Shown: positions 8,675-58,256 of the stretch, one piece after another | Position numbering within the stretch: the first letter of the stretch is position 1 | Layout of the letters: each line of letters starts with the position of its first letter | Assembly (NCBI GenBank): GCA_949152475.1 | Contig: OX424556.1 | Span: 1,550,001 to 1,614,000, forward strand | Source of the DNA: Terebella lapidaria | Taxonomy: Eukaryota > Annelida > Polychaeta > Terebellida > Terebellidae | Direction: 5' to 3' | Length of the DNA stretch: 64,000 nt | Notes under the pieces: generated by a model | What the model saw: only the letters and a program-made list of their open reading frames with translations | Database searches by the model: none | Told to the model about the DNA's origin: nothing | Made by a program: the position numbers and the translations under genes

Positions 8675-8915
8675 GTGACAAATATTTGCCCACGAAACAT
8701 ATATATAAATGTAGGTATCAACCTATTACCACCAAAACAACTAGATTTTTATGACGACAATAGCAAATATAACATACACCATTTTGGAATAGAAACTATC
8801 ACCGACCAAATAGTTTATCCAAAGACACAATGGTGTTATTGTGGGCAGACTGTGTAAAATGTAGTTGTTGTTATTGTGCAGTTGAAGGGATTATCATACA
8901 ACTGCCCAACAACCT
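8675..8915 (-). repeat. Dispersed repeat family R1, reverse copy at 8.7 kb
   Basis: GTAGGTATCAACCTATTACC, then AGACACAATGGTGTTATTG, then GGGCAGACTGTGTAAAATGT match the reverse complement of the copies at 830-1110 and 14955-15240, and in direct orientation the copy at 27225-27400. Diverged, non-coding. Confidence 0.55.
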
Positions 8916-9035
8916 TTGAAAATAATTTACAAATCCTAAACAAACTCACTTATAACCTAGACCACTGCGAGCAAGTAAAGTAAATATCACACAAACATCT
9001 ATACTACAGGATAATAAGTTACACATGAACACTAT

Positions 9036-27770: not shown

Positions 27771-29652
27771 TGAAACGGAAAGCCTATTTTATTACAGTTA
27801 TAAACTTCCCTGGACGGACTAGCATCATTTATGACGTAGGACCACAAACATCGACGGACTGACAGATGTATCCCCCTTTTATTTTCACGCATTATTCACG
27901 CATCATTTGGACAAGTTATATTCGGGACTGGGGAATTATCTACATTTAACTGTACTTGAATAACCTTAACTACAAGGTCTACGACCTCACTGTAAAGATT
28001 TTACCATCAAATCAATTGTAAACACCAGTACATCGTATTGGAATTGACAAGTGACGGATGATTCAACTCTGTTATTTCACCACAACCAACGTGTCAAGTC
28101 CACTTCGCATAGGAATTTGTATCTATGATGTCTAGTTTCCACTCGCTACAAGTTTCAAGTTTATAGCACATCATATTGACACGTATTTATTGAAAGTCGC
28201 ATCAAAATACAACAGTTTTCACGTCAGCACGTGTTGTGATCTGACAGAGGAGTGTCCACAACCACTGTATTTCCTGATTTTAGACAGCGCCACTTTCGAA
28301 TTGGCGCATCCAAGTGATCGTTATATTCGATCTTTAAACCCAGCCAATAATTCTGATAAATAGGAATAAATTGTTATTCAGCTGCTTATACACAGGAATT
28401 GTTTGGATTTCGTCCACAGATTGTATTTCAAGCAGTTTTACAATATTCACTTCATAGCGTCTCCATGGCGTAGTAATTCTTTAGGTGGAAATCACCTGAC
28501 ATTGTAACTATTTGTGATAGGAATCATATCAGTGTGTCAAAGACCGTTTTTGATTTAAAACGGTAAATTATACCAGATTTGATGTATATCTGGCAGCTTA
28601 GCTCATATTGTTAGGGGTATTGAGGCATGCAGCCTGTGTACTATTTTTTTATGGCGGACGGATATCAGCCTGTTTACTGCCGTCCTGGCCTATATAAGAA
28701 CCTGAGAAATCCAAGCACTTCACTCTGGGTGATAGCGATCCTAGAGTGCACATCTCCAGATTTTGAGAATTCTTCAAAAACTCCTGAATTAACTTCATTT
28801 CCTGGCATATCTTGAGCCTAGCCAAAGTAAATATGAGTTTTTCAATAAATATTTCACCTTAAAAGTTCCGGAATATGTAATTGCTTGGGTTTGCTCGGAT
28901 TGCTCGGGTTTGCTCGGGTTTGCTCGGATTTTGTAGAAATGCTCGGGTTTTCTGATTCTAACGTTTAGAAATATTGACAAGGAATTTCCAAGTAAATATA
29001 ATCATAATGTAGGGTGATAATGATCCCTAAATGAAGTTAAAATCCAATGAAATGGGGTAGTACTTAGGGTGATAATGATCCCTAGTTTGTCATCTGTAAA
29101 TACACATTATTGGCCAGCCAGTTCGCCGATGTTTAATTCATCAAATTCGTACTAACCTGTGGTACAGTGTACAAAAATGAGTTATGAAATAAAGAATTTG
29201 TTGAATTTCATCTTCACACTGTTTTCTCCATATTAGTCGGGAAATTGTTTGAATATTATATCTGCCAATTCAGGTGATAGTGAACCTGAACACATCTACA
29301 TCACATGGAAATTCAGGTGATAATGAACCTGGAAACATGAACTTGCATGAGTAATAGTAATAGAGAAGTTTTCACAAACATATGTGTACTGTCCTGACAA
29401 AAATCGGAATCGCTCGGGAAACTTCGGAACACAGAAACGCTCGGAAAACTTGGAAACACAGAAACGCTCGGAAAACTTGGAAATACGGAAATGCTCAGAT
29501 AGATTGGAAGCGCTTACAATTTGATGACAACTTCATGAATACGCATTGATTGAAGAATTAATATTTGAATATATGTCAGAGAAGCCAAAACCCACACACC
29601 CTCCATAAATCAACACATGCATTTAACTATTGTGTAGCACTTGTCCGTTACA
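27771..29652 (+). repeat. 5' LTR of Gypsy A
   Basis: 1882 bp, TG...CA bounded. A TATA box (CTATATAA) at 28690-28697 and AATAAA at 29188-29193 suggest that R begins near 28720 and ends near 29210. GCTCGG-containing short tandem units occur near 28875-28945 and 29405-29500. Four small hairpins with a shared loop lie at 29011-29331 (see findings). Confidence 0.93.
28690..28697 (+). promoter_or_regulatory. TATA box in the 5' LTR of Gypsy A
   Basis: CTATATAAGAA lies about 500 bp ahead of the LTR AATAAA signal, as expected for the U3 promoter of a Pol II transcribed LTR. The same box is in the 3' LTR at about 38520. Confidence 0.7.
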
Positions 29653-35978: not shown

Positions 35979-36166
35979 AAAGACAAGCTGGAAATATTTT
36001 GCAGCAGATATTTAAGTTGTTTGATTACTTGATAAGTTCAACTTTATCCGTTATCCACTAATCCGAGGCTGGCTGATACAAAAGATGGGGAAATTTCAAC
36101 ATGACATTCTGAAAGTTTGAATGCAGTGACTGACATCTTGCTCATTATTACAGATCCAACATCAAC

Positions 36167-37492
36167 ATGCCAGTAAGCAGGGGACGCGTATACCGTTGCA
36201 AGAGATGTGCATGGCGAGGGGAGAAGTCTTGGGCGATGGCCCATTTTGCTAAGAAACATTCTACGATGAAGGAGGCACCGTATGCTTGTGTGCGCTGCAA
36301 CTTCAAGTGTGCGAGTGAGGTCCGCCTCGAGGAACATTTGTTAAAACAGCAACACACAAAAAAACACGAGAAAATCACCCCCACTTTATTCAAGAAAGGC
36401 GGAGCCGAAAAACTGCTCGAGAACTTCGACAAGTTGACTACGGAACAGTCTACAACTGAATGGAGGCAGCGGGAAGACGGGGAGAACAGTAGTGGCACCT
36501 CAAAAACACTGGCGGAGTTTCTCCGGACGTCAGGGATGTCGGCGAGTGACATTATCTCTCAATTGAAGACGCCGTATGACCCAACAGAACCCAACATCAA
36601 AGCGGGAGGGGATCAGACACGACCTATAGACTTGACAGGAGTGACAGAAGTGACAGAAGCGACCAAGACAACAGAGACGACGGAGACAGGACCAGACATA
36701 GTGACTACAAGGAAAGACGAGCGACCACACATTGACAACAGGACATCATCAGACAAAACACAGGACAAGACACAGACACAAGACCAGGACACAATTGACA
36801 AAGACCAGACGAACACCACAGTACACCCCACCACATTAGACACTACAACACAAGAACAAGACACCAGAACATTCATCGAACTCACAGCACCTTCATGTGG
36901 ATTGACACTTTCTACTTCTTCATCTTCATCATCATCTGGCTCATGTAATACAAACTGCTCATGTCTCAAAACACAAAAGCGCACTCACAGTGACACCCAC
37001 TCCCAGGACATCTCACCACAGAAAAAACAAAGAACAGACACACCTCAGACACCGGAAGAAATCACACCCACACCAAACACCACCATCGACATCTTTAATA
37101 CAACACTGCTGACCACACTGACTCAGACATCAAAACACCTCTTTGAATTAAATCAGACAATTCGAGATCGTGCAAATCAAGACAACAGCCTCAGACAATC
37201 ACTTGAAAACAACACCCGCACTCTCCAGGAACTAGCCAACAACGTAAAAGACTTAACAGAACAACTAAGAAAACAATCACCACACACCTCAACACCAACA
37301 GCACAAGAACCACTTACCCTCATACCTATCGACAGGACGAACGCCTACGAGGACCGACCAGACCCACGACCCTCAAACTACCAAAGACGAAATTTCGATA
37401 AAGACTGGGACAGACAAAGGACGCAGACACAGGACGAGAGACGACATTTTACATACAACGGACATTACAGAGGGTTGGGACGTCGTCACTAG
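36167..37492 (+). CDS. Accessory ORF of Gypsy A with C2H2-like zinc fingers
   Basis: A 441-residue ORF between pol and the 3' LTR, where some Gypsy elements carry env. It is not envelope-like: there is no signal peptide or membrane segment. Residues about 8-62 hold two C2H2-like fingers (YRCKRCAWRGEKSWAMAHF and YACVRCNFKCASEVRLEEHL with their histidines). The middle is Thr/Asp/Gln-rich and low complexity, with a Ser run and a basic KKQR patch. Residues about 320-385 have a heptad-like coiled coil (LFELNQTIRDRANQDNSLRQ), and the C terminus is basic. A good splice-acceptor-like sequence (CTCATTATTACAG) ends 13 nt before the ATG, which suggests expression from a spliced RNA. Role unknown; nucleic-acid binding is inferred. 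Confidence 0.75.
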   Translation: MPVSRGRVYRCKRCAWRGEKSWAMAHFAKKHSTMKEAPYACVRCNFKCASEVRLEEHLLKQQHTKKHEKITPTLFKKGGAEKLLENFDKLTTEQSTTEWRQREDGENSSGTSKTLAEFLRTSGMSASDIISQLKTPYDPTEPNIKAGGDQTRPIDLTGVTEVTEATKTTETTETGPDIVTTRKDERPHIDNRTSSDKTQDKTQTQDQDTIDKDQTNTTVHPTTLDTTTQEQDTRTFIELTAPSCGLTLSTSSSSSSSGSCNTNCSCLKTQKRTHSDTHSQDISPQKKQRTDTPQTPEEITPTPNTTIDIFNTTLLTTLTQTSKHLFELNQTIRDRANQDNSLRQSLENNTRTLQELANNVKDLTEQLRKQSPHTSTPTAQEPLTLIPIDRTNAYEDRPDPRPSNYQRRNFDKDWDRQRTQTQDERRHFTYNGHYRGLGRRH

Positions 37493-37633: not shown

Positions 37634-39125
37634 TGAAACGGAAAGCCTATTTTATTACAGTTATAAACTTCCCTGGACGGACTAGCATCATTTATGACGT
37701 AGGACCACAAACATCGACGGACTGACAGATGTATCCCCCTTTTATTTTCACGCATTATTCACGCATCATTTGGACAAGTTATATTCGGGACTGGGGAATT
37801 ATCTACATTTAACTGTACTTGAATAACCTTAACTACAAGGTCTACGACCTCACTGTAAAGATTTTACCATCAAATCAATTGTAAACACCAGTACATCGTA
37901 TTGGAATTGACAAGTGACGGATGATTCAACTCTGTTATTTCACCACAACCAACGTGTCAAGTCCACTTCGCATAGGAATTTGTATCTATGATGTCTAGTT
38001 TCCACTCGCTACAAGTTTCAAGTTTATAGCACATCATATTGACACGTATTTATTGAAAGTCGCATCAAAATACAACAGTTTTCACGTCAGCACGTGTTGT
38101 GATCTGACAGAGGAGTGTCCACAACCACTGTATTTCCTGATTTTAGACAGCGCCACTTTCGAATTGGCGCATCCAAGTGATCGTTATATTCGATCTTTAA
38201 ACCCAGCCAATAATTCTGATAAATAGGAATAAATTGTTATTCAGCTGCTTATACACAGGAATTGTTTGGATTTCGTCCACAGATTGTATTTCAAGCAGTT
38301 TTACAATATTCACTTCATAGCGTCTCCATGGCGTAGTAATTCTTTAGGTGGAAATCACCTGACATTGTAACTATTTGTGATAGGAATCATATCAGTGTGT
38401 CAAAGACCGTTTTTGATTTAAAACGGTAAATTATACCAGATTTGATGTATATCTGGCAGCTTAGCTCATATTGTTAGGGGTATTGAGGGGTATATCAGCC
38501 TGTTTACTGCCGTCCTGGCCTATATAAGAACCTGAGAAATCCAAGCACTTCACTCTGGGTGATAGCGATCCTAGAGTGCACATCTCCAGATTTTGAGAAT
38601 TCTTCAAAAACTCCTGAATTAACTTCATTTCCTGGCATATCTTGAGCCTAGCCAAAGTAAATATGAGTTTTTCAATAAATATTTCACCTTAAAAGTTCCG
38701 GAATATGTAATTGCTTGGGTTTGCTCGGATTGCTCGGGTTTGCTCGGGTTTGCTCGGATTTTGTAGAAATGCTCGGGTTTTCTGATTCTAACGTTTAGAA
38801 ATATTGACAAGGAATTTCCAAGTAAATATAATCATAATGTAGGGTGATAATGATCCCTAAATGAAGTTAAAATCCAATGAAATGGGGTAGTACTTAGGGT
38901 GATAATGATCCCTAGTTTGTCATCTGTAAATACACATTATTGGCCAGCCAGTTCGCCGATGTTTAATTCATCAAATTCGTACTAACCTGTGGTACAGTGT
39001 ACAAAAATGAGTTATGAAATAAAGAATTTGTTGAATTTCATCTTCACACTGTTTTCTCCATATTAGTCGGGAAATTGTTTGAATATTATATCTGCCAATT
39101 CAGGTGATAGTGAACCTGAACACAT
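37634..39125 (+). repeat. 3' LTR of Gypsy A, left part
   Basis: Matches 27771-29295 with near identity, apart from a roughly 33-bp segment present near 28627-28660 in the 5' LTR and absent here. It continues at 44289 after the inserted transposon. Confidence 0.93.
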
Positions 39126-39139
39126 AGCATGAATTCCAG

Positions 39140-39545
39140 CGTGACGGAATCACCATTTGGGCACTAAATTCACAGTTCACAGTCCGTTTTTGTGATGATT
39201 ATCACACAATGTTGAATAATTTTTGGTCTTGTGTATTTTAAAAGGGTGAATACTGTTAGGTTCAGTGGGTTTTGTGACAATAAATATAACCAGTCATGAA
39301 GTATACACTCATTAATCAGTGTGACGGAATCACGAGAGTTTTAACCCATCGAAAAAGTATTTTGTGTATTTCCTAAAACTCTGCTCTGTTGAAGAATAAA
39401 CAAAATTGTTGTCAGTGTTATTGAGAAAAACACTACCTCGACTATTTGTATGAAGTTTTCTTTCATTACTTTCCTTCATATTAATTATTTGCGGAAGCGA
39501 TAAACGCCGTGACGGTATCACCGAAAATATCGTGACGGAATCACC
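39140..39545 (+). repeat. Left subterminal motif cluster of the transposon
   Basis: CGTGACGGAATCACC occurs at 39140-39154 and 39531-39545, with close variants at 39320-39334 and 39508-39522. The motif is partly palindromic (CGTGA/TCACG). Repeats of this kind near transposon ends usually bind the transposase. Confidence 0.85.
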
Positions 39546-39831
39546 GTGCAATATGTTGCCCATTTGTAGTGGATTAAGTCTGCTTAATTCGGATCAACCA
39601 ATAAAATTAGTGGCAAAATTCTGTGTCAATCATTATTTAAACTGTTAGATATTAGACTGAAACTAATGCATAGTGTTGTGTACAAATATAATTTTCGCAA
39701 TAATAACTATTATGTACCATATTGAAATACTATGTGCAGCCCTATATACATGTATATTCACATAATTATGTGTCTATTGATAATCAATAAATCATTCGGA
39801 AATGAAAACTATCAACAGAATTGTAAGTTTG

Positions 39832-39974
39832 TGTAGGGTTCGGCGACCCCACGATAAAGAGGTACCGGTATACCCCATTACTGGAGTGTCGCCGAATGTC
39901 TTATAAACCTGTCCGCACGTTCACGCTATAATCGTGGTGTCACTACTAGGTAGCCACCACGTCATAACGCTACA
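39832..39974 (+). repeat. Left terminal repeat of the TRIM-like element
   Basis: 143 bp; contains CGACCCCACGATAAAGAGGT, GGAGTGTCGCCGAATGTC and TAGCCACCACGTCATAACGC. TG...CA bounded. Confidence 0.75.
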
Positions 39975-40173
39975 GTGCTTTCCCCTTTCGGAGAGACCTC
40001 GTCCCCGAGGTCAGCTATATCCCACTGCCCAGTCACATCACAGCACCGAAGATCAAGGGCGCCGCAGCTACCCGATTATGTACACATACTTGGCTGCGAT
40101 GTGAATCTCAGTGAGGGGCTGACCCCAGGAACGACACCGAGAGAACCCAGTGGTTCGAAAGGTACGGTACCAA

Positions 40174-40310
40174 TGTAGGGTTCGCCGACCCCACGATAAA
40201 GAGGTATACCCAATTACTGGAGTGTCGCCGAATGTCTTATAAACCTGTCCGCACGTTCACGCTATAACCGTGGTGTCACCACTAGGTAGCCACCACGTCA
40301 TAACGCTGCA
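40174..40310 (+). repeat. Right terminal repeat of the TRIM-like element
   Basis: 137 bp; nearly identical to 39832-39974, lacking 6 bp in a CCGGTA-like short repeat and with a few substitutions. Confidence 0.75.
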
Positions 40311-40679
40311 TTTGAATCAAATTTATTAGTGACGTTATGCGTGCAACACTTTGACACATGGCCGACATGAAATTCTGGCATTTTCTGTTCATGAACTATT
40401 GCAATGTTGTCCTTATAATCTGTCCCCACATTTTATAAATATGTATCATCACATCTTATGAATATATGTATGTTGCATTTAAACGTATGTAATTTCAATT
40501 CTAATACATGTATTTTCATCACGAATGCCTCGATCAAGACATGTACAGTAACCATTGGACCTTAGTATCTACATGTTATCATGTCATATCTTCATATTAC
40601 TACCACAAAACAATGTGTCAAACTGGAAACGACTATTTTGTTCATTTGTTCATTCCTTTTCTACGTGGGAGAATCCAGA

Positions 40680-42683
40680 TTAACAGCAACCAATACATGT
40701 GAACTGATTATCATCCAGTATTCCATTCTCTTCTGCGCAGCTCTCATGGAACCACTTCTGGCATGCTGCACCACACTTGATCCAATCTTCTCCTTTCTTG
40801 GGGTCAGCTTCGTCACCATAGACACGACCGCACACTGTGCACGGATACTTGGACTCTGTTGTCGATGCGACCCGCTTCCGTTTTTCTTTCCCTCTTTGCT
40901 GTTTTGCTGCCTTGACATTCAGAGTTTGCTCGTTCAGCTCAACTGCACTGGAGTAGTACCTGAGGGCCAGGGAAGTGCTGTTGATCGCTCGAACGCAGTG
41001 GATGTTCACGATCCCACTCATGGTGCCAAGTGAAGCCCATCTGTCGACTGCTCCAAGCTTCGAACACTCTGCATGGATATCCTGTTCTTCAACTAAGGAA
41101 ACCTTTATTGAGGTATGGGCGCTTTCCAGAGCAGTAACAAAACTTCTTGCACTGGTAACAGAGCATGCCCGGGACAGAACCTTCCGCTGTACAACCCGCT
41201 TGAATGTGCCGCCGATTGCATCGACAGGTCCTTTTCCATGACTGGTAGCGAAAAAGTTCCACTGTACCCGGAAACCACGGACTTCCTCGAAAACAGGCAA
41301 CATGGAGAAGACATACTTGTTCTTGTATTGGCTGCTGGGGCCATCCGTCCAAATGTTGACACTCTGTGCGGTCGAGAATCTCAACTTCGCCCCTGCAAGG
41401 ATGATGTTGGTGAAGGCTGTCACCGATGTCTTATCCTTCTCCTTGAAGTCGGAAACTAACACCCATGAAACGGTGGACGTTCGGTGCCACATTACTGTAG
41501 TGTACACTGTAACGTGCCTCTGTGACCAGTGGGCTGATTGGATTTCGTCCTGATAGAGTGAAGCATAATTTTCAGAGAAGTCCATCTGGATGGTGCACTC
41601 AGTACTCTCGGCTTCTGTGGAAGCTCGCTTGTCCTGTTCGTAGGCTTTCGCTTGTCGGTCCTTGATGAACACATGCCACCAGAACTGGATCAACTTCTTC
41701 CCCAGAGAACTCACCAGTTCTTCGACTATGCCTTGTTTTGGTAGTTTTGCCACGTGTCCAGACTCATCATTGCCCCACTCGAACCATCGAATGACGTCAT
41801 CTTTCACCTGCTGGGTGGCCTCTGTCATGTACTTGTTGTACAGCACATTGTCTTGGCAGTTGTCGCAATTGTTGGACATACACAACTCATTTTCAATATC
41901 ACACACACATATCTGGCCGAATGCTTCCTTCGAATACAGTGGGACGGTAGGGCATTTTCTATGGAGTGCTTCCAGTGCCAAGATTGTGTTGCTGTGGTAC
42001 TTGCAGCCGCAAACATTTTGTGGCGTTTTGCTGACTAACAGCACATGTACGGGTCTTAGTTCGGCAAACTTCGATTTGCCGATTTTGTGGCCGGGATTCT
42101 CTGTTTGAAAGATTTGAAATGCCTCCGCTATTGTCATAATCATGTGGCGCTTTTGCTTCGTCTGCTTCTGACCATCGACTTTGACCACCATACAGTCTGC
42201 CTTGCCTGGCATCACTCGCGAGATGGAGTCGCTCTCGAAGAACAGCATTACCTTCTCTTCCACTTCCGAAATTCCAGAGCTAGGTGTGGGCTTCGGGAGC
42301 TTTACTTTGAGAACATCATTTGCCAGCCTCTTAACAATTGCTGCTCTCTTTTTGGGACTTGATGGCAATGCACTTTCAGCGCGTCTTCTCGCCTTGCCGA
42401 ATGTCGCTGGTGACTTGAATGTCCCCAGTCCCGACGTCAGATCAACACCATCATCGTCACGTGTTGCATTGATGGATGCTCTCCACTTCCTGGTGGCTGC
42501 CTTCCCACGCTTCCGTACCTCCTTCAGCCCAACTTCCGTCATCTCCATGCGACCCAGCTGTTTCCTAATGCGATCTTTTTCCAGGTGGAGTGCATAGACT
42601 TCTCTGTCAGCCTTTACACGTGCCCGACGTGCCCTCTGCCGTTCGGCAGCAGTTTTCGGGAGGACCTTCGAGACTCCGAGCAT
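40680..42683 (-). CDS. DDE-transposase-like protein with C-terminal PHD finger
   Basis: About 667 residues from the first ATG at 42683. The frame is open slightly further, to a splice-acceptor-like TTTATTGCAG ending at about 42694, so a 5' exon is likely. The N terminus is basic and helical (KTAAERQRARRARVKADREV), probably DNA binding. A Cys/His-rich middle follows (CGCKYHSN, CMSNNCDNCQDN). The core has three acidic motifs in RNase H-fold order: IQMDFSENYASLYQDE (D368), NIWTDGPSSQYKNK (D447) and ATSHGKGPVDAIGGTFKR (D488). Residues about 613-667 form a C4HC3 PHD finger (CTVCGRVY, WIKCGAACQKWFHESC, CIGC), which in other proteins reads histone tails. I recognise this as a family of uncharacterised invertebrate proteins; calling it a transposase is inference from motifs and its position in an inverted-repeat element. 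Confidence 0.75.
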   Translation of the reverse strand: MLGVSKVLPKTAAERQRARRARVKADREVYALHLEKDRIRKQLGRMEMTEVGLKEVRKRGKAATRKWRASINATRDDDGVDLTSGLGTFKSPATFGKARRRAESALPSSPKKRAAIVKRLANDVLKVKLPKPTPSSGISEVEEKVMLFFESDSISRVMPGKADCMVVKVDGQKQTKQKRHMIMTIAEAFQIFQTENPGHKIGKSKFAELRPVHVLLVSKTPQNVCGCKYHSNTILALEALHRKCPTVPLYSKEAFGQICVCDIENELCMSNNCDNCQDNVLYNKYMTEATQQVKDDVIRWFEWGNDESGHVAKLPKQGIVEELVSSLGKKLIQFWWHVFIKDRQAKAYEQDKRASTEAESTECTIQMDFSENYASLYQDEIQSAHWSQRHVTVYTTVMWHRTSTVSWVLVSDFKEKDKTSVTAFTNIILAGAKLRFSTAQSVNIWTDGPSSQYKNKYVFSMLPVFEEVRGFRVQWNFFATSHGKGPVDAIGGTFKRVVQRKVLSRACSVTSARSFVTALESAHTSIKVSLVEEQDIHAECSKLGAVDRWASLGTMSGIVNIHCVRAINSTSLALRYYSSAVELNEQTLNVKAAKQQRGKEKRKRVASTTESKYPCTVCGRVYGDEADPKKGEDWIKCGAACQKWFHESCAEENGILDDNQFTCIGCC

Positions 42684-42693
42684 TTTCTCAGCC

Positions 42694-43698
42694 TGCAATA
42701 AATTGTGTACAGTATGTATTTTAGTACATGTCAGATAAATCTGATCACATTCAAGTGACCCTTACTTGGGCCTCGTTACAGTAACCACGATAGGGTAATC
42801 AAATAAGCAAGTACACGATACGCAAGAATCATGTGATGCAATAAGAATGACAACTGACCTGAACTTGATTTGACTATCTTGATATTGACAGATCTTGATT
42901 TGACAATCTTGAATATCGAAATTGGTATTATTTCCAATTTAGCATTATTTATTTTGTAACTAACGTTAAGAAGGAATAAATGAAATAATAGTAGGTAGTT
43001 CATTCGCTACTTATAAATACAACTGTTGTATAGTTTTATTATCAGGCCTACATTAATCTTCAATCGGACCAACTAACAAGAAAAATTTGACATGGAGGTG
43101 TGTCATAAAGACATCATAGCCTACAATATTTAATACTATTGGTACTAACATGGCTAACGCTATTAACAAATGTTGTGTTTGTAAGAATTTATAATCGACC
43201 GGGCGTTGACAATTTTGTTGCAGTACATATAAGCGGAAAATATTGATTCGTTGAAGGATATAAATTATATGAATTTTATAAAACCACAGCGTGACACTTG
43301 GACCTAAATATTGATATTAATGTGATTTTATAGCTTTATTAGTTGACCATGCATAGCATATATACGTATATATATATATTGCATTGAATTTATCTAAATT
43401 ATTTACATTTTATTTAGTCCCTACATGAAAAACAAAATAGAGATTGTATTTCGTGGGTCCCTGTACATTGTTTTCATGACATGTGTTACTGTAATACCCC
43501 CACCCCCCCCCCCCACCCCACACACACACACACAAACACATAGCCAACACATCATCATAGGCCTACAGTTAAATATATGTAATGTCGGAATGGAAGACTA
43601 CTGTCATACACATATAATATTGAAAATATGAAATAATTATATTTATTTCATGCTCGCACATGCATGCAGTATGGGATACAGAATGACCGACTGTTCTT
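42694..43698. other. Upstream region of the transposase gene
   Basis: Non-coding part of the 5.16-kb transposon. It likely holds the promoter, first exon and an intron of the minus-strand gene; the donor site was not identified. A C/CA-rich microsatellite lies at about 43496-43540. Confidence 0.45.
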
Positions 43699-43892
43699 GG
43701 TGATTCCGTCACGCTTTGTCGGTGATTCCGTCACGTAATTTATCTTCGTTATGAGACCGAAAAAGCATTACTGACTGTGTTTTGTTACCAGACATTCATG
43801 ATTTTTTATTCGAAATGTAAACAAGAACAACATTGTATATACACATTTGTTTTAAAACAAACTTTCTGTGTGTGGAGCGTGACGGAATCACG
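43699..43892 (+). repeat. Right subterminal motif cluster of the transposon
   Basis: GGTGATTCCGTCACG at 43699-43713 and 43721-43735 (reverse orientation), and CGTGACGGAATCACG at 43878-43892. The same motif occurs in the left cluster. Confidence 0.85.
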
Positions 43893-44288
43893 AGCACCGG
43901 CCCAACCAATATTTCTAAACAATCCACAACATGTTGAAACTGCTCTGCTATCGGTGATAAATTGTGATATATATCTTCCTGATTTAACTAAGTAACCACC
44001 TTATTCACGTAATGACATAAATGGGGGCGTTTTTCTTGTATTTATGGCAACTAGGGCCCTAGTAGTGAACACGTGTTTACCTTTGAATTTCGCGCCTTTT
44101 TTCGACGAAATCCACTTCCGGTTTACCGTACTTGACCACATGTTTCTTCAAAAGGACGATCTCTGGACTCATTTGTTGTCGAAAATTTAGATGCGGCCGA
44201 CACTCTCCAATAAAATAGAGTCAACTGCGATGAACAATTCGCGAAAAAATAAATCGACCCCAGGGTGACGTTTTCCATGGAATTCATG

Positions 44289-44674
44289 ATCTACATCACA
44301 TGGAAATTCAGGTGATAATGAACCTGGAAACATGAACTTGCATGAGTAATAGTAATAGAGAAGTTTTCACAAACATATGTGTACTGTCCTGACAAAAATC
44401 GGAATCGCTCGGGAAACTTCGGAACACAGAAACGCTCGGAAAACTTGGAAACACAGAAACGCTCGGAAAACTTGGAAACACAGAAACGCTCGGAAAACTT
44501 GGAAATACGGAAATGCTCAGATAGATTGGAAGCGCTTACAATTTGATGACAACTTCATGAATACGCATTGATTGAAGAATTAATATTTGAATATATGTCA
44601 GAGAAGCCAAAACCCACACACCCTCCATAAATCAACACATGCATTTAACTATTGTGTAGCACTTGTCCGTTACA
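44289..44674 (+). repeat. 3' LTR of Gypsy A, right part
   Basis: Continues the LTR from 39125. It carries three copies of a roughly 26-bp unit with AACGCTCGGAAAACTTGG, where the 5' LTR has two. Confidence 0.92.
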
Positions 44675-44684
44675 ATATACTGAG

Positions 44685-44834
44685 ATTCCAGTTCGTTTCT
44701 GCAAAGTTCTTCTTCCAAAAGACGATCTGTACAGTGGTCAAGGTGTAATTTTCGAGAGCGATACCAACGATCCTGTAGCTATAGGATCGTTGGTGATACC
44801 AATGGATAACAAACCAAGTGTTACACGGAAATAG
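44685..44834 (+). other. Possible terminal-exon-like open frame
   Basis: Directly right of Gypsy A a frame reads EIPVRFCKVLLPKDDLYSGQ, then GVIFESDTNDPVAIGSLVIP, then MDNKPSVTRK and a stop. The codons look plausible for protein, but I recognise no family. It could be the last exon of a host or transposon gene interrupted by element A. A near-perfect hairpin with 11-bp arms (ACCAACGATCC and its complement) sits inside at about 44762-44793. Confidence 0.3.
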
Positions 44835-45188
44835 GGCGTGAGTATACATACGCCCTTATGATGTGCAAATTTGTTTGAAATATATTTTTCTTTTATGCAA
44901 ATATTACATTAACGAAAGTTATTGCATTAAATATAGTGATGTTGAACTTCCCTTTAAGATCAAAATCCAATCCAATAAAAAATACTGAATACCACTGTTC
45001 ACATTTTGAAATACGGCCTTATTACGCAAAAGGTTACTATCAGTGATATCAACTCGCAGGTGGAAGATTAAAGAATTTCTATCAAGTTATTAATTTATGG
45101 TAACCAATCCTCTTTAAGTGCAATCAAATAAATGTTTGTAATGTCTACAAAAGTTCATCCAAATATTGATTAAAATTATTTTCCGAAA
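44835..45188. other. Unannotated stretch
   Basis: AT-rich with no gene or repeat recognised. Confidence 0.4.
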
Positions 45189-45303
45189 TAAGGGTTTCCC
45201 TTAATATGGCCCACCGGATGTATGGCCCATGGGTGATAATTCGGATTCATTAAAAAAAAATTTTGGTGATATAATTTTTTCTATAACGTATTTTCGATGA
45301 AAA

Positions 45304-46046
45304 TGTGATAAATATCGTTCTGTGGCCGATATCAGGCCGAAATGTCTGTGATTGCTGTGCAAATCACAAGGCCGGCAGTTCAGTTCAATAGTTTATTTGG
45401 GATGATAGCCGACAATGCCGCAAACACACTACAAGGCCGAACACACCTAAGTCCGATGAATCCCTGTCGACAACACTATATCCTAGATATTTAGTCCTTT
45501 GAACAATCCAACATATAAATATCACAGTTCAGTTATTTAATAGTCCTCGTGTTAAGCCTTTGCTTTACAATCACGGCCACATCTTGTAACACGTCTGTTC
45601 ATGAGGACATCCACTTCTCAACTCCCTGAGAAAGGCCGGGGCCGGCAACATGTGGTGTAGGTTTTCCCGCCAAATGTCTGCGGTGTTGTGTCATTGGCTG
45701 AATGTATGCTGATCTCACCGGGAAAGTGGAATTCCCCGGTGCGTGTCTTGACTACTATGGTCTGTATCTGTACACGTGATGTGAGTGTTATGCATGTCAT
45801 GTTCTATGTTTAGAAGTAGGTGCTGGTAAAGGTCAAGGCCGAAACTAACTGGGTCGATGTACCGAATGAATGGGGCCGCAAGTGCATGTGGATTGACCTG
45901 TGTATGTAACCAGGACTACATGGAGTTTATGCTTGTGATCGTATAGTGTGTACTTGTCCTGTATGTAAGTCATGTAGAATGAATGTTTGTTGTGGAAATA
46001 TGTATGCGCGGGAGGGACGGGGGTTACAGTCGCTAAAATTACTACA
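45304..46046 (-). repeat. 3' LTR of Gypsy B
   Basis: 743 bp. On the plus strand it starts TGTGATAAATATCG and ends AAATTACTACA. It matches 57515-58256 with only a few substitutions noticed. The sense-strand polypurine tract (GAAGGGGTG) lies immediately inside, at about 46047-46062. Confidence 0.93.
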
Positions 46047-46596
46047 TTACACCCCTTCATTAATTCTACGCCCTCGGAATTACCCTACCCGGACCCTACC
46101 GTCGCCAAAAACTAAACAATAAAAAGCTAAGAAGTCCTAGAAGGTCAAACCCCAACACTCACACACACACGCCGCGCGACAATGGGAAAACACTTCATAC
46201 AATAAAAATTTCTAACCGTCAAAATAAACGTCATCAGTCAGTCCGTCAATAGTTGCTACGATGATACATTTACACATACATGCACAACAACGAATGATGA
46301 TGAATGGAATGTATGAACAAAACTCCTCGACGTTTCATAATGAAACGGAAACTATTTAAAGTCTATAAACTGAAAAAGAATTGTCTGGATTAACCTTAAC
46401 TAAATTACATGAATAAAATACCGTGACTAGGATAACTATTTACAAATATTTACAGATTTTGGCCGACATTACAATGAGCCGACATGACCAGGATGATCAC
46501 AGTGACCAAGATTTTCCAAGTCACTTTCTCTCATCGGGCCGACATAATTCATTTAAGGCCGACAGTTTCTCATTCATCACCACCAGGCCGAAACGC

Positions 46597-49275
46597 TTAC
46601 TCCTTCCTGCCTCGCTTGCCAGCAGGAGGGGGTGGTGGTGCCGGCGAAGCCTGCCGCATTAATTGTTGTTGCTCCTCTGGTGGCAGACGGGGCAAAATCG
46701 ACACAATAGTGGCGAGCAGGTCGCCCGGGATAGTTGTACCCGAGTCGCTCTGTGTCGCGGCCGTATCTGTCGGGGTCGAAACTGGGGCCGACTGCTCCAG
46801 GTGTTTCACCCGGGCACGTAACTGTTCGTTCTCCTGCCGTAAATCCTCGTTTTCGTCCTCAAGCCGATGTAGCTGCCGACGTAGGTGGTCGGTCTCTTCC
46901 TCGAGCCGATCAGGGAAGGTCGGGAGATGCCGTTCGTGGAGGGCTCCCATCCCGAATCCCACAGAGAGGCCGCTATACTCAGCCTGCCGAATATGTTGGT
47001 CCATAGCTTCTAGGTAGAAACGCCGGATCTCCCGAAAATGTTGGTTCGCCATGTCATCGGCGCGTGCCAGGTACAAGGTCGGAAGGTGTTCACTCTTCCG
47101 GGCCGGCAAGATCAACGGGTCGGCGTTGTGGGCCGCCTGGGCGATATGAGACACCCAATGTTCCTCGTGGACACGGGGAAGATTTGGAAGCTGGTTCGCT
47201 TCCCGACTCCTGAGGGGGTTGGCCAGATCCGGGTTCTGCCCTGGCAGGGCCTGTAGGCCGGGAAGCATCCGAGTCGACAACCGTGTCCCGTGCTACTGCA
47301 CAAATTGGATATCAGCCGAAAACTCTCCTGAGCCGTGAAACGGCAGCCGTTCATCCAAGTCCCTGTGGAGAGGTTCCAGCGACTCAGGCTCGTCATATTG
47401 TAGCCGCGGCCGATCAGCGGTCGAATCCTTAGTAACGACCATCTGTATTACCTCCATGCTGCTGTCCAGATATGGAGGTTCGTCCGTCTGAAGGACCGTT
47501 CGCCTGGACGGAAGGGGCGAATCCTCACAGTCGCTAACCGAGGCCGAAATCGATTCCTGGCGGGCTTCCTCCGCAGCCGGCTGTAGAGGTGGAGGAGAGT
47601 CCCGTGACTGGGCCGTTACCTCCTTCCGGTCGGTCTCCTGTCCTGTCGGAGGCGATGCCGACAAAGGAGGAAATTCCTCCGGTGGGGGAAACAATCCTTC
47701 CCTCACGCGATAATCTGTGACGTTTGTCGCCGTAGGCCGCTCTACCACAAGTTTCCGTGGGATGATGTCCGATGGCCGAGTTTGCACCTGGGTCGTCACA
47801 GGGGTGGACTGAGCCGATGGCTCCGAAACCACGGAGCTGGGAGGCTTGAGTGCGTCCGTCTGGTAGGCGACTGGCCGAGTGAAAAAGATTGTGCTAGGCC
47901 GACGTATTGTTACCCAGCGATTCATCGCCATGATGTCATTGATCATCCGAGCTAGGCGATCCTCCTCCGCTCGAGTTGAAGGCCGAAGGTACTCAAGGCG
48001 TCGGAGCACTTGATGAATTTCCGGGGCCGAATTCGGGGGGTATTGGTCGAACAGTGGAGGCGCCATGTGCCAAATCCCGAAAGTGAGCACTCTGTTGACA
48101 TCCCGTCGGAAGATTGGGATGTCGGCCGGAACACGAGGAGGCCGATAGTTTGGACTGGGCTGCATATCTACGCGGCAGCGTAGCGCGAACCGTTGCAGCA
48201 TAGGGCCGGAAGCGTTGAGCTGTCCCTGCTCAAACAGCGGGAGAATGCCGACGTGGGTCTGAGTTGCCTCACTCAGGTGCCGAATCATGTCTTCCGACGT
48301 GAGCGTGACGTAATTGTCTTTGGCCGGACAGACGAAAAATCGTAGAAGCGGAAAATGGTACGCCAGGACGTGGGCGTCCAAATCCGAGGCCGAACGGAAA
48401 GGTCCACGTCGAGGTTTCGTTGGCCATATCCTCCCTTCCTCTCCATCCTCCTCTCCAATACAGAAGGGACATAAATACCGGCCGTCTTCCCTCCTTAGTG
48501 GCTCCAAGGTCGCCAAATTTCCCTCCGTAAGTCATGAGGGTGCGCCGAAATTGTGTTCATGGCCGTAACCATCATGTCGGTTCCGAAGATGGAACGGAAC
48601 GTCATTCCAGTTAATCGGCTGAGCTCCGTACGGAGTGATTGGGGCCGGAACTAGAGCCATGAGCTCCGATATCTGACGACGATAAGCCGAAGCACGTGTC
48701 ACAGGGCCGGAACTAGCGCGTCGCGAATTTCGCGCCGACGAGTGAGGACTTCTGCCGGACGACGAACTCACTGACGAAGCCGAAGACTGTGCCGGTGACG
48801 TGACGGCACGGGGCCGAACTACCAGCGTTGATGAGGCCGAAGATGCTGGGGCAGGCTCGATTGGTGTCATCGCCTGCTGAGCGGGAGCCGACTTTGCCGA
48901 ACTGGCGGCTTCTGCCACGCGTTGAGCCTCCAAGGCTCGACGAACAATTTCCCCACCTTCCTCTAGTTGCCGAAAACGATCCGGGTCGTCCTCTGAGGTC
49001 GGACTCGGAGTGTGCCGGGAGCCGCGTTGCGCCAGTCTCGCCATGATTTTGTATCGTGGCTGTTTATTTGGGCCGGATGCCGTAGCTGTTTGTTCCGAAC
49101 TGGGTTCGGGGCCGATCGCGGACAACTCCTCGTCCGTCAGTACAATTGGGTTGTCCTCTTCATCACCACGCTCGACAACCTCAACTGTCAATTTGGTTCC
49201 GTCAAACTTGATGGAACGAGGCCGATTATCGTTAGAGCCGTCATCATCTTTATCATCGCCAGGCTTGTCAGCCAT
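46597..49275 (-). mobile_element. Accessory ORF region of Gypsy B, downstream of integrase
   Basis: Consecutive open segments on the element's sense strand lie between integrase and the 3' LTR. The first part (from 49275) is Ser/Ala/Pro-rich and low complexity after an acidic start (MADKPGDDKDDDGSN). The middle opens with a C2H2-like finger (YLCPFC, then SASDLDAHVLAYH) followed by conserved-looking globular sequence (VNRVLTFGIWHMAPPLFDQY). The last part holds a strong leucine-zipper-like coiled coil (LEEETDHLRRQLHRLEDENE) and a proline-rich, basic tail. No signal peptide or membrane segment is seen, so it is not an envelope gene. The finger plus coiled-coil plan recalls the accessory ORF of Gypsy A. 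Confidence 0.7.
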
Positions 49276-50676
49276 GACGAAAGCCGAAGTGTGAATGTCT
49301 CACTATACGTACTAGGCCGACTGTAACTTATAAGTCCCAATCTCTTCAGAACCGACCTAGTAATTCTATCCGACACAGTGTTCGTTACTTATCCCGAGCT
49401 ATTAATTTCCTTCTTACAATGTCCGTAATTATTGAAAGAATAGTCCGTGATAATTGCCACAAATCTTCCTTTCGACACAAACGAGCTCCTGCCACTTCAA
49501 AAGTTCAGGCGCAAATGACCTACTTGCCGCTAAATTTCCACTGCCGTACACTGAGATGCTTATCAGTATCCCAATTCCACGAATCGGGCCGGGGGGCGCT
49601 CTCTGCCGATATACAAAAACGTCTTTACGCTGTATACCATTGTTCCAAGCGTATCTGCAACAAGGCGGGCCGTTGTCAGGGAAACGCAGGACGATCTCTC
49701 TCTGACCTATCCGGGTCAGTCCATTACGACAGTAGGGGGGTCCTCACACTGTCCATTTTTCCGAATGTCCATCTGCCGTCCCCTGGATTACACGTTCCTA
49801 TACATTGTCTATTTGTGCTAATCGACTGTTCAAATTACTGGGCTCTTTTTGCCCGACGACTCACTATTGTCTTTATCAGGGGAGATTTCATGTGGGTGCT
49901 GTAAACAGCTTAAATGTTTATCTGCGCTCGTGCGAACCTTGTGAACTATGTAGTTTATCGTTCCTTCTCTTTACAAATTAGCGCACAATAAACGAACGGC
50001 CGAATTGCTGTTTCACAGACGACACACAGTTATTAAAGGCTGAGATATTAATATCAATCACTCACAGGGGCGGACATCGTTCCATTCATTATCAGCCAGT
50101 TCACAAGACAACGGGGCCGCTATATTGTAGGGGGTCGAAATTGCAATGATCAGGGTCGGTCACACCGTGGCGCTTTGAATATTTTTGGGTGATGAATTTG
50201 ATGACAGGCCGCATCTTGGTATGATAGCTTTTCCGTGACTGGTTCCCGTACCACTGGGTCGTTCCTCCGAATATTACATGGAGTGGGTAGAGGCTCTGTC
50301 GACGCATACCCCGGAACGAATCACCCTACCACCTCTTCGACAACTAAGTGGCCTTACTCACAGCGTGACATGAATTATCCTCTTCGGCTGACACATGGAT
50401 AGAAACTTGACATGATAATTTTAGTTAGTGCGTAACACACGCGGAACAATAGTACATGCTATACGGGGTCGAAACCAATTATTCACCAGCATCATAATTA
50501 TGAAATCATATCAAGTGTATATATACCGAAATTGCCTCACTGACATCTTGTACATATTAAATGCATATATTGTTATTGTAATATAATATATTATTATGGG
50601 GAATGACATGATATCATAGTCCGTTAGACATGCATAATTCATCATCAATGATATCAATCAGATAACAAGGCCGGGG
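49276..50676. other. Non-coding interval inside Gypsy B
   Basis: About 1.4 kb between the accessory region and integrase with no credible sense ORF. Plus-strand frames (for example 49419-49904) carry no motif. GGCCG-type motifs continue here, though it appears non-coding. Confidence 0.5.
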
Positions 50677-52650
50677 TTATCTGTATCGGGCCGGTCTGCG
50701 TGCGTTGCGTCTGGGTCGATTTGGTCGTGCAAGCAGGGGCGTAGCCTCGCTTGTCTCGGGGTCGGATGATATCACAGGCTTTTGCCTGCGTGTCTTGCGT
50801 GCCGGTTTTGGAATGTCGGAATTTGATCTGTGCGATATTTTCCTTTGCCGATGTCGACTTGAGCCGGAAGAAGTCGGAGATCGCGGTTGACGATCCTGGG
50901 TCGCTGGCGAGTCAGACTCAGCTGTTTGGTCTGTATCTGTATGCCGATCTTGTACTGTGACCTCCCAGGGGTAGTAAAACTCCTTGAGAAGCCCCAGGGG
51001 GTCGGCCGACTGTTCTGAGCCAGACTTGCTTGACGACGTCGAAGGTCGCACAGGGTCGGAATAGATGTGAGCCGCTTGGTTGTCACCTTCGTACTGCTTG
51101 AGCACGTCCAGATGAACAACACGAGTGTTCCGAGGGTTGGAAACCAAGGCGATTCGGTAATCTACCTCGGTCACACGGTCGACGATCCTCCAGGGACCAG
51201 TCCAAGGCCGAGCGAACTTATTATTCTGCGTGAGGGGCAGATAATAATACCGGACCAGTTCTCCTGGTTGAAACTGGGGTCGTGGTTTCGCATGGGCATC
51301 GTAACCCATCTTCTGTCGAATTGCTGCTTTCTCAAGATGGTCTTGAGCGAAACCGTGGGCCGTCCTGATGGCTTGCCGCAAATACTCCACATACTCCGGA
51401 CCACATGGAGGAAGAGGTTCGGGGTCGTAAGTCGGAAACATGAGGTCGACTGGCAAGTTACACTCGTGTCCGTACACCATCAGATGCGGGGTGCATCCCG
51501 TGGACGAGTGTACTGAGGTTCGATAGGCCATTAACACATATGGCAGGTGCACGTCCCAGTCGTTTGCACGATCGCTGACGAATGCACTCAGCATGTTGAG
51601 CAATGTCCTGTTGAATCGCTCCACTTGGCCGTCGCTCTGGGGTCGATATGGGGCCGTGCGGATCTTCTTAGCGCCCAGAAGACGCACAACATGCCAAAAC
51701 AGAGAGGACTCAAATTCAGTGCCCTGGTCGCTATGGATCGCCTTGGGGACACCATGGTAAACTATCCATCTGTTCACCAGGACGTCGGCAACATTTTTGG
51801 CGGTATGTCGCCGCAGCGGAAAGGCGTCCGTATATTTCGTGAAATAGTCCGACACAACGAGGACGTACCGATAGCCTCTTCCCGTGACCTTGTGGGTGTC
51901 GAGGATGTCCATCGCTATTCGGTCGAAAGGAGCTCCTGTTGGTAACTGCGTCAGGGGCGATCGTTTTGGGGCCGGTTTACCCTTGCGGGTCACACATTGC
52001 GGGCAGCGGGCACACCAGCGGGCGACATCCAGTGCCAGACCAGGCCAGTAGAATCGGCGCCTGACTCTCTCGATGGTTCGCTGAATGCCGAGATGTCCGA
52101 CAATCTTCAGGTCGTGAAGTTGGTGCAGAACCTGCGTTCTGAGTGCTACGGGGAGCACGGTTTGCACCACAGGCCGTCCAGCGGGGTCGGGTTTTACGTC
52201 CTGAACTAGTACTCCATCTTGTAGCGCCAGGAGGCTCCATCTGGAAACAAGTGTCTTTACCTCCTCCCCATGGCGCGCTACTTCCCGCATGTCCGGTTTC
52301 GTGCCGGCTAGTACCCATTGTCGCACTTTTCCGACGCTCGGGTCGGCTTGCTGTGCCGCGACAATGTCCTGGGTCGAATAGTCCGAAAGCCACTTTTGTC
52401 CATCAAGTGTGGCGTCCAAAGCACGGACCCAAACAACTTGGCGTGCCGAAACTAGTTGGGGCAAGATCGGTGATGTTATCGAATCACTGTCCAGGAGGTC
52501 TGCCCTTGTCTTGGCCGGAACAACAGTGATCCGACGAACTGGAAGTTCTCCGGAACTTGTTTCTGGGTCGGTCGGAGGTGTGACGAGTCGTCCGGGACAG
52601 TCCTGGTGTTTACAACTGTGACACCGTGACAGGCCATCTGCGTTGCCGTG
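50677..52650 (-). mobile_element. pol: Integrase region of Gypsy B
   Basis: Sense-strand frame with an HHCC zinc region (LHDLKIVGHLGIQRTIERVR, then CARCPQC), the catalytic core (IAMDILDTHKVTGRGYRYVL, IHSDQGTEFESSLFW, YRPQSDGQVERFNRTL) and a GPY/F-like part (FARPWTGPWRIVDRVTEVDY), ending in a basic, disordered tail. No chromodomain is seen. Confidence 0.88.
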
Positions 52651-53990
52651 AAGTTTGCCGGGCCGATGCTCTATCCGGAAGTCGTACTGTTGTAGCTTGG
52701 CGAGCCACCTGGCGAGCATGCCGTCGGCGTCGCTGTAATTCTTTAGCCACCTCAGTGAGCTGTGATCGGTCCAGAGGAGGAACTTCCTACCCCAAAGATA
52801 ATGCCGATAATGTTGTACCATTTCTACCACTGCCAGCAATTCTCTGTATGTGGTACAATAGTTCCGTTGGGTTCGGGATAGGGTTTTGCTGGCGAACCCG
52901 ATGGGGATTTCTTTCCCGTTGACCCTTTGTGAGAGCGTAGCCGCTTGCGTCAGTGTCGAGGATGAAATAATCATCCGGACTCTGGGTCGGATGTGCGAGC
53001 TTAGGCGCCTGGATGAGGGCGTCGCGGAGTCGCTGAAAAGCTCGTCGCTGGGCCGGTCCCCAAGTGAAGTGGCATTCACCTCGGGTGAGCGCTACGAGAG
53101 GTTCGCCGATCTCAGCGTAGTCCCTGATGAATCGCCTGTGGTAATTGGCGAAACCAAGGAAAGACCTGACATCGGAGATCTCGCACGGGGTCGGCCATTC
53201 TCTGATGGCTTTGACTTTGTTGGGGTCGACTCGAATTCCTTGGCCGCTCACTATAAACCCCAGGTACAAGATTTCCCTTTGGAACAACTCGCACTTCTTG
53301 GGCTGAAGTTTCAGGCCTGCCGATCTGATCTGATCCAGGACCGCCTCCAGGTTTGCGAGTGCCTGATTGAATGTTCTGCCGTAAGCGATGACGTCATCAA
53401 GATAGCACATACACCGTGTCCACAAGTACCCACGGAGTATGGTTTCCATCAGTCGTTCAAATGTTGCCGGTGCATTGCTGAGGCCGAATGGCATGACCTT
53501 GAACTGGTACAGTCCTTTCCTTGTGGCAAAGGCAGTTTTCGGTCTGTCAGCCGGGTCGACTTCGACCTGCCAGGAGCCCGAGGCCAGGTCCAGGGCCGAA
53601 AAGTATGTTGCGCCCGCCAGGGCGTCATGAGTGTCCTGAATGTTGGGCAAAGGATATGAATCCTTGCGGGTGACGTCATTCAGGAGCCGATAATCGACGC
53701 AGAATCTTACTTGTTTTTTTTTTTTTTTTTTCACGCACGAGCACCACCTGTGCGCTCCAGGGCGAATCTGACGGCTCAATGCACCCCAAGCGAAGCATCT
53801 TGTCGACCTCCTCATCTATGATGCTCTGCTGCGCCTGAGGGACGCGTCGTTGACGTTGCCGAATCGGGGCCGAGTTGCCGGTGTCGATCTTGTGTTGGAC
53901 GACTTGAGTCCGTCCTAACTGTCCATCCGGGTGCATGAAGGTGTCCTGATATTGATGAATCAGGTTAGCGCAACGCCAGGGTGTTGTTCT
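52650..53990 (-). mobile_element. pol: Reverse transcriptase and RNase H region of Gypsy B
   Basis: RT motifs: RFCVDYRLLNDVTRKDSYPL, FSALDLASGSWQVEVDPADR, MPFGLSNAPATFERLME, and the catalytic CYLDDVIAYG. RNase H: YFILDTDASGYAL, then a tether with TTYRELLAVVEMVQHYRHYL and WTDHSSLRWLKN. The coding sequence is interrupted. Confidence 0.85.
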
Positions 53991-54904
53991 GGCGCTAGTC
54001 CAGCGCGATCCACCATCTCTTGTAGATGCGGCGGCAGGTCGCAGTAGTGACTGGCGTCTGCCGTGGGCAGGTCGGGCTCCTCTCCGGGTCTTGGTAGAGC
54101 TCCGACGACACTCTCGATCGGACTGGCTATGGCGACGGGGTCGGATCGAGTAAGTGCAATACCGATATCTGCTGTATTGACGACAGACACCTTTACACAT
54201 TGACGGTCCAGGGTCGTTAATGTTCTTCCCATGATGAGGTCGGTATCCTCGGGAAAGGCCGTCAGTGGTTGAATCATCCGTGGATGTTGTCGAACCCGAA
54301 CTCTGGAGGTTGGGACCAGTACAACGATTGCCTCGCTGCGTGCGGGGACGGTGACGGCTCGGCGCACGGCCATTCTGACAACGTTGGCCTCAATGTCTTT
54401 GTGCGCGAACAGGATCTCTTTGTGCACTTGTATTGTTCCTTCACCGTAATTCACCACAGCGTGAGCTTGCCGGAAAAAGTTCATGCCGAGTATCATGCCG
54501 TCGTGGATGTCAGCCACACAAAATGTCACAATCATATGGTTGGTTCCGACCTGAATTGGAAGGTCGATCAGTCCATCGATTGGGCTTGACTGTCCGTTGA
54601 CGTCACGAATCGTGGCCAAAGTATGCCGTAACTGTCGTTGATCGGCGGGGACGTGTCGGAGCTGATCGCGTCAGAGCAAAGATATTTGCGCTCCGGAGTC
54701 GAGCACAGCTTGCATTGTCTTATCTCCGACGCGTACCGATAACTTCCAGCACTCGTGTGCCGCTCTCGAATTGTCTATGACGGCCGGAACTGAGGGATCG
54801 TCTGGTGGCTTGAAGAGCATGTGCAACGGCGGCAACTTGGGTTCCGGTCCGTATGGAAACGCATAGAACCCTCCGTCGTCGGATATCCATTCCACCTCGG
54901 ACAT
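53990..54904 (-). mobile_element. pol: Protease region of Gypsy B
   Basis: The aspartic protease active site is recognisable as MQAVLDSGAQISLL near 54.68 kb, followed by a retropepsin-like stretch (VADIHDGMILGMNFFRQAHA). Interrupted. Confidence 0.7.
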
Positions 54905-55193
54905 ACTGTCCCGGTGCCGTTGGCGGTCGGGGGCGACACCCCTTCAGGACGACGGTTTCCCCGTGGAGGTCGTTGTGGACGTGGTGCGGACACCCCTTCA
55001 TGAGGGAGAGCCGGCTTTGAGGTCGAAGCTTGACACTTAGTACACACCCCTTCAAGGAGCTGAGGTGCGGGCTGGGCCGGCTGTGGGGTCGTAACTGGCG
55101 GTTGTGCTGACTTGGTCGTCATGGCGACCACGGGTGTGGAGCATGTAACATTGTTCTGTTGCCCGGAAGGTCCTTGCTCCTCAGCACCGTCCA

Positions 55194-57454: not shown

Positions 57455-57479
57455 TGCCGGTAAGTTAGGGTCGGTAATC

Positions 57480-57514
57480 CGAGACTAGCTCAGATCCTGG
57501 TCTCACGGCGCCAA
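57480..57514 (-). other. Primer-binding site of Gypsy B
   Basis: Reading the sense strand out of the 5' LTR, the sequence begins TTGGCGCCGTGAGACCAGG. TGGCGCC directly after the LTR is a classic primer-binding-site start. Confidence 0.75.
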
Positions 57515-58256
57515 TGTGATAAATATCGTTCTGTGGCCGATATCAGGCCGAAATGTCTGTGATCGCTGTGCAAATCACAAGGCCGGCAGTTCAGTTCAAT
57601 AGTTTATTTGGGATGATAGCCGACAATGCCGCAAACACACTACAAGGCCGAACACACCTAAGTCCGATGAATCCCTATCGACAACACTATATCCTAGATA
57701 TTTAGTCCTTTGAACAATCCAACATATAAATATCACAGTTCAGTTATTTAATAGTCCTCGTGTTAAGCCTTTGCTTTACAATCACGGCCACATCTTGTAA
57801 CACGTCTGTTCATGAGGACATCCACTTCTCAACTCCCTGAGAAAGGCCGGGGCCGGCAACATGTGGTGTAGGTTTTCCCGCCAAATGTCTGCGGTGTTGT
57901 GTCATTGGCTGAATGTATGCTGATCTCACCGGGAAAGTGGAATTCCCCGGTGCGTGTCTTGACTACTATGGTCTGTATCTGTGCACGTGATGTGAGTGTT
58001 ATGCATGTCATGTTCTATGTTTAGAAGTAGGTGCTGGTAAAGGTCAAGGCCGAAACTAACTGGGTCGATGTACCGAATGAATGGGGCCGCAAGTGCATGT
58101 GGATTGACCTGTGTATGTAACCATGACTACATGGAGTTTATGCTTGTGATCGTATAGTGTGTACTTGTCCTGTATGTAAGTCATGTAGAATGAATGTTTG
58201 TTGTGGAAATATGTATGCGCGGGAGGGACGGGGGTTACAGTCGCTAAAATTACTAC
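57515..58256 (-). repeat. 5' LTR of Gypsy B
   Basis: 742 bp, matching 45304-46046. Confidence 0.93.

Follow-up and report, generated by a model that had tools for sequence, protein, structure and literature searches.

The 64-kb window of Terebella lapidaria DNA described here (contig OX424556.1, positions 1,550,001 to 1,614,000; "the window" throughout) contains a Gypsy-type retrotransposon, Gypsy A, whose 3′ long terminal repeat (LTR) is interrupted by a DNA transposon with a single large gene. The 5′ LTR (27771-29652) still holds the uninterrupted target, as a preliminary description of this locus had pointed out; it reads ACACATCTACATC, with ATCT at 29294-29297. In the 3′ LTR, which starts at 37634, ACACATAG is followed by CATGAATTCCA at the left junction and TGGAATTCATG by ATCTACATC at the right. 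A piecewise comparison of the two LTRs finds only one 27-base gap in a minisatellite and, beside a 33-base gap, a pair of adjacent mismatches; this small divergence makes the Gypsy copy a young one and the insert an even younger one. The right end of the insert, 44288, is unchanged from the preliminary description, but the start had been placed two bases too far out, at 39126. A 355-base query from the left end matched three places in the 761.6 Mb of source genome searched and the other two align from query base 3 only; the transposon therefore starts with the CATG at 39128. These were the only places found with that query, and no derivative with a long shared left end was seen. The coordinates of all features are collected in Table 1.

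Table 1. Features of the transposon and its insertion site (window coordinates)
Feature	Position	Strand	Basis
DNA transposon, 5161 bp	39128..44288	- (transposase gene strand)	empty site in 5′ LTR; CATG at both ends of copies 2 and 3
Left copy of 4-bp duplication, ATAG (two bases off target ATCT)	39124..39127	.	empty site ATCT at 29294-29297
Right copy of 4-bp duplication, ATCT	44289..44292	.	empty site comparison
Left terminal inverted repeat, CATGAATTCCA	39128..39138	+	11 bp
Right terminal inverted repeat, CATGAATTCCA on minus strand	44278..44288	-	11 bp
Subterminal 13-mer, GTGACGGAATCAC	39141..39153	+	motif scan
Subterminal 13-mer	39321..39333	+	motif scan
Subterminal 13-mer, 1 mismatch	39509..39521	+	motif scan
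Subterminal 13-mer	39532..39544	+	motif scan
Subterminal 13-mer	43700..43712	-	motif scan
Subterminal 13-mer	43722..43734	-	motif scan
Subterminal 13-mer	43879..43891	+	motif scan
Nested TRIM-like element	39832..40310	+	direct repeats 39832-39974 (143 bases) and 40174-40310 (137 bases), TG...CA
Transposase open reading frame, 667 aa from first ATG	40680..42683 (stop included; ATG 42683)	-	frame reading
Predicted RNase H-like catalytic core, residues 361-530	41097..41606	-	structure prediction
Codon, presumed catalytic D369	41580..41582	-	invariant 60/60 rows
Codon, presumed catalytic D448	41343..41345	-	invariant 60/60 rows
Codon, presumed catalytic D489	41220..41222	-	invariant 60/60 rows
Conserved Cys/His cluster C226, C228, H231, C262, C269, C274, C277	41856..42011	-	alignment
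C-terminal PHD finger, C4HC3, residues 616-667	40686..40841	-	pattern, Pfam and sequence comparison

A search of the source genome for further copies, as had been proposed, found three besides the one in the window, and two of them retain an intact frame and are about 99.5% identical to it. Copy 2 (locus L003; loci are numbered with an L) has 14 mismatches in 5005 columns against the window copy and copy 3 (L004) has 14 in 4550, while copy 4 (L005/L010) is 98.2% identical across the stretch compared and carries two TAG stops. The window element is real and recently mobile, and with near-identical copies that keep intact frames the family is a candidate working animal transposon. Inside the insert lies an element that by eye resembles a terminal-repeat retrotransposon in miniature (TRIM), flanked by TTTG at 39828-39831 and 40311-40314. 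Its repeats occupy the identical place in the window copy, copy 2 and copy 3; the transposon therefore moved with the TRIM-like element inside it.

The target duplication is 4 bp. ATCT was the target of the window insertion, because this is what the empty site shows. The junctions read ATAG/CATG...CATG/ATCT in the window copy, ACGA/CATG...CATG/ACAT in copy 2 and TTTT/CATG...CATG/TTTT in copy 3, so that the window family alone has a perfect duplication in one of three cases. When related families are included, 9 of the 14 insertions with both ends read have a perfect 4-bp duplication; this count leaves out L018 and copy 4, for which one end was read, and also L009, L047-L049 and L051. The perfect duplications in related families of the same genome are AGAT (L006), AATT (L012) and ATTT, CAAA and TACT (L014-16), to which ATGT, ATAT and GTAC (L017, L019, L020) can be added. 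Some junctions fit less well and count against the mechanism proposed below: the window copy and copy 2 agree at two of four bases, with the mismatching pair adjoining the left end; L007 (left end L052) and L013 agree at three of four; and L001, with AAAT/TTCT, agrees at one of four. One explanation for the odd bases at the left end would be that two donor bases were retained there and kept in gap repair. The preliminary description had instead proposed a 2-bp AT duplication, the AG being part of the element. The window alone would allow this, or no duplication at all, but copies 2 and 3 lack the AG and start at CATG, copy 3 has its perfect TTTT, and related families show perfect 4-bp duplications; a 2-bp duplication is thus very improbable.

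The ends are inverted, as noticed earlier, and have an 11-bp run in common, a length that none of 20,000 position pairs drawn at random from the window attains. When the genome was searched for the left-end 20-mer with a tolerance of 2 mismatches, 9 matches came up, compared with 1 for the reversed control. Elements of the window family and related families measure 5161, 4189, about 3385 and about 3791 bp. The relatives have in common an inner terminal core, A[A/T][T/C]TCCA. The form AATTCCA is found in the window family, L014-16, L017, L019, L020 and L001 and, at the left end, in L012, L013 and L018; at the right end L012 and L013 read ATTTCCA. For L006 the sequences are CATGAACTCCA and CATGATTTCCA. 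The outermost four bases vary (CATG, GGGC or GGCG), L013 and L014 showing single variants. L048 and L051 (around 1501) have a further end variant, CATGAATTCCATCGTGACGG / CAGGAATTCCATCGTGACGG, and the sequence downstream of it is also common to both; another family with such ends therefore exists.

Inside these ends lies a repeated 13-mer. Allowing up to 2 mismatches, the 64-kb window contains seven sites, all of them within the insert, compared with a mean of 1.48 and a maximum of 4 in shuffled sequence; L001 has eight sites, against 0.04 in shuffles. Repeats of this type are present towards the ends of most relatives and their sequence differs by group: GTGACGGAATCAC in the window copy and L023, GTGACGGAATTAC in L006-L009, GTGACGGACGTAC in L012 and L013, GTGTCGGACGTAC in L014-16 and GTGTTGGACGTAC in L001. 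L017-20 carry a different repeat, GTGACTTATGGGAC, which occurs 7, 6, 7 and 7 times respectively, and the family-wide 13-mer pattern had no site in 7 of the 20 stretches scanned (L017, L019, L022, L025, L027, L028, L031). Together with the 4-bp duplication, the core and repeat motifs offer a route to further members that does not depend on the protein.

The single large gene on the minus strand is the one originally described. A splice-acceptor-like sequence was seen by eye directly upstream of the open reading frame (ORF), and an earlier exon is possible. Residue numbers used here count from the lysine before the methionine, so that D369, D448 and D489 are the D368, D447 and D488 first singled out as the acidic motifs; that choice of residues was correct, each being invariant in the alignment. 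The third acidic residue is likewise aspartate in all 60 rows. The three catalytic motifs were found in 16/16 loci checked (L002-L004, L006-L009, L012-L020), and in three more distant relatives from the same genome (L025, L028, L031) the three aspartates are kept in an HGK...D context, the 13-mer being absent from the stretches scanned. A protein search of the source genome gave at least 75 matching stretches, of which some are fragments belonging to a single gene. Structure prediction, which had been suggested as a check, returned an RNase H-like fold for the region holding these residues, and the protein is predicted to have an integrase-type core with a DDD active site. The conserved Cys/His cluster upstream of it probably binds zinc. 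With the predicted fold, the invariant DDD and the near-identical copies elsewhere, the proposal that this is a DNA transposon encoding a DDE/D-type transposase holds. The ORF might instead belong to the host or be a passenger, with a different transposase moving the element, and catalysis by the ORF protein is indeed presumed; but families with mapped ends carry their own version of the gene, the motifs recur at every locus checked and no other stop-to-stop frame of at least 160 aa overlaps the insert; we regard it as highly unlikely.

An intact ORF of 690 aa is also present in the animal-type transposon on contig JAAEPJ010000558.1 (L001:1-4028), which is filed as a bacterial metagenome-assembled genome; the contig probably reflects contamination by a eukaryote.

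Not all of the evidence favours a transposase of this kind. D413, invariant in alignment A1, is asparagine in copy 2. Foldseek with the model of the window protein gave no PDB match at E ≤0.001, the list including a Hermes chain at E 0.02, and no transposase model was among the best 25 of 52 Pfam families for the 60 rows (E ≤1). The HMM comparison that had been called for was thus carried out but named no superfamily: the Pfam and NCBIfam scans had no transposase model among the families listed (25 of 25 in one scan). A PDB sequence search with the family profile gave nothing credible. Chains of hAT, piggyBac, Transib and MuA were lacking among the 50 entries listed by structure alignment (VIA-align), an absence which rules out nothing. 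The structural matches that were listed include retroviral integrases, IstA and Mos1, at 4-16% identity; the likeness is one of fold only, an RNase H-like core with three acidic residues, whereas the third residue of the window protein is aspartate and its Cys/His cluster and C-terminal module differ.

The C-terminal PHD finger, which had also been recognised from the start, is genuine. The window protein has the C4HC3 pattern with a tryptophan before the histidine; the pattern is present in 13/60 rows, 11 of these 13 with the tryptophan, and the closest solved relatives by sequence are the PHD fingers of Pygopus and KDM5. Against it, the Pfam PHD score is 17.2 bits, under the gathering cut-off of 24. 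In many members outside one clade a Tudor/SH3-like barrel is found in the position of the PHD finger; comparison of this tail by sequence with PDB and Pfam gave nothing credible, and the Tudor reading rests on structure. The presence of different reader-type domains at one position suggests that chromatin may steer the choice of landing sites. Alternatively, the PHD finger and the barrel could be structural or DNA-binding parts that read no histone, the barrel perhaps being the counterpart of the SH3-like domain at the C terminus of retroviral integrases. Several integrase matches do cover both the core and the C-terminal barrel (rmsd, root-mean-square deviation, 12.5-17.9), and the modest PHD scores and the fruitless sequence searches with the barrel point the same way; we consider this a serious possibility, though the less probable one.

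In retroelements, cases of tethering by a chromatin-reader domain are known. The C-terminal Tudor domain of Gypsy-10_Ec32 from Ectocarpus is, to the knowledge of its authors as given in 2025 in the available part of their report, the first in a transposable element (PMC12477816). Both it and many of the relatives described here are mobile elements with a C-terminal Tudor or Tudor-like domain, but Gypsy-10_Ec32 is an LTR retrotransposon whereas the window element is a DNA transposon (PMC12477816, same part). Going by the titles listed in searches of the open-licence literature, no DNA transposase with a Tudor-type tail appears to have been reported. A PHD finger in a transposase is not new, because Rehavkus has one (PMC6446971, in the portion available). 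With related transposases that have different reader-type modules at one position in one genome, the relation between reader choice and insertion sites would be directly testable.

Taken together, the element is very likely a recently mobile cut-and-paste DNA transposon with a proposed DDD mechanism and a probable PHD-histone contact, Sola-like by description. In such a mechanism one protein would recognise both the 11-bp ends and the subterminal 13-bp repeats, and its RNase H-like DDD active site would cut both transposon ends. The 3′ ends would then be joined to the target across a 4-nt stagger, which would give the 4-bp duplication. The PHD finger would probably touch the tail of histone H3 (H3K4-methyl type) in the chromatin of the donor or the target, and relatives may use the Tudor/SH3-like barrel in its place.

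The Sola superfamily has, in the sections available of a plant transposable-element review, a DDD transposase, a 4-bp target duplication, terminal inverted repeats of 11-1124 bp and a size of mostly 2-9 kb (PMC10741241); the available text on Sola2 gives 4-bp AT-rich duplications and inverted repeats of 12-13 or 21 bp (PMC3627910). Sola, and Sola2 in particular, is among the described systems closest to the window element, which agrees with Sola in its DDD transposase, 4-bp duplication, 11-bp inverted repeats and size, a likeness by description. The same portions of the two sources mention neither 13-bp repeats nor PHD or Tudor modules. The most likely reading is a lineage resembling Sola, again by description, whose chromatin readers are modular. 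It may even be a plain, already catalogued lineage of Sola1, 2 or 3 for which the label alone is missing, and we lean somewhat towards this. Besides the points of agreement with Sola, and the description of Sola2, the homologues with an organism name, among the matches listed, are from animals of several phyla, and an earlier catalogue entry would therefore be likely. On the other side, a text search of the open-licence literature with the protein motifs gave no transposon title among the matches listed. The titles listed in other searches of that literature included none on the window family.

The suggestion in the preliminary description of a family outside the described superfamilies is accordingly doubtful, since the Sola description fits (PMC10741241, in the part available). 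It seems rather unlikely that we are dealing with an undescribed animal DDD superfamily having one inner core, a diverging 13-bp iteron and exchanged histone readers at the C terminus (PHD in one clade and Tudor elsewhere, further members having OTU or Ulp1 protease domains), by which lineages would choose chromatin through different marks. The superfamily is probably known in outline, and it is the modular readers and the shared repeats that merit further attention.

Other superfamilies were considered and set aside. Rehavkus, of the MuDR group, shares the PHD finger but differs in its 9-bp duplication and the minisatellite before its 3′ inverted repeat (PMC6446971, available portion); 4 bp is found here. 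The C/DxxH motif between the second D and the last E, which marks MuDR, hAT, P, Kolobok and Dada, is absent from the window protein between D448 and D489, where the third residue is D, and was matched in 2/60 rows only. Kolobok and piggyBac would give TTAA duplications; TTAA is not among the nine perfect duplications (TTTT, AGAT, AATT, ATTT, CAAA, TACT, ATGT, ATAT and GTAC). Tc1/mariner elements duplicate a 2-bp TA (PMC10741241, part available), and here the duplication is 4 bp and not TA. Proteins with Pfam DUF7869 show weak similarity in 4/60 rows (best E 0.0046), and hhalign of A1 against 11 frames from loci of the source genome gave a probability of 1.2% and E 0.042, a poor test because some of these frames are plainly wrong; the case for kinship is weak.

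Searches of viral_contigs with the protein and with the end sequence gave no match, and an Rfam scan of 38000-45200 and a tRNA scan of the window found nothing. Downstream of pol and ahead of its 3′ LTR, Gypsy A has an extra open frame (36134-37492; 452 aa from stop to stop), with C2H2-like Cys/His patterns at its start as judged by eye. A second Gypsy-like element occupies 45302-57812; its pol frames lie on the minus strand, and its direct repeats, 45302-45601 and 57513-57812, agree to 99%. Elsewhere in the window, a 1013-aa open frame at 15929-18970 is endonuclease- and reverse-transcriptase-like and looks by eye like a non-LTR retrotransposon, and a long 21-bp minisatellite array at 8887-10327 has open frames on both strands.

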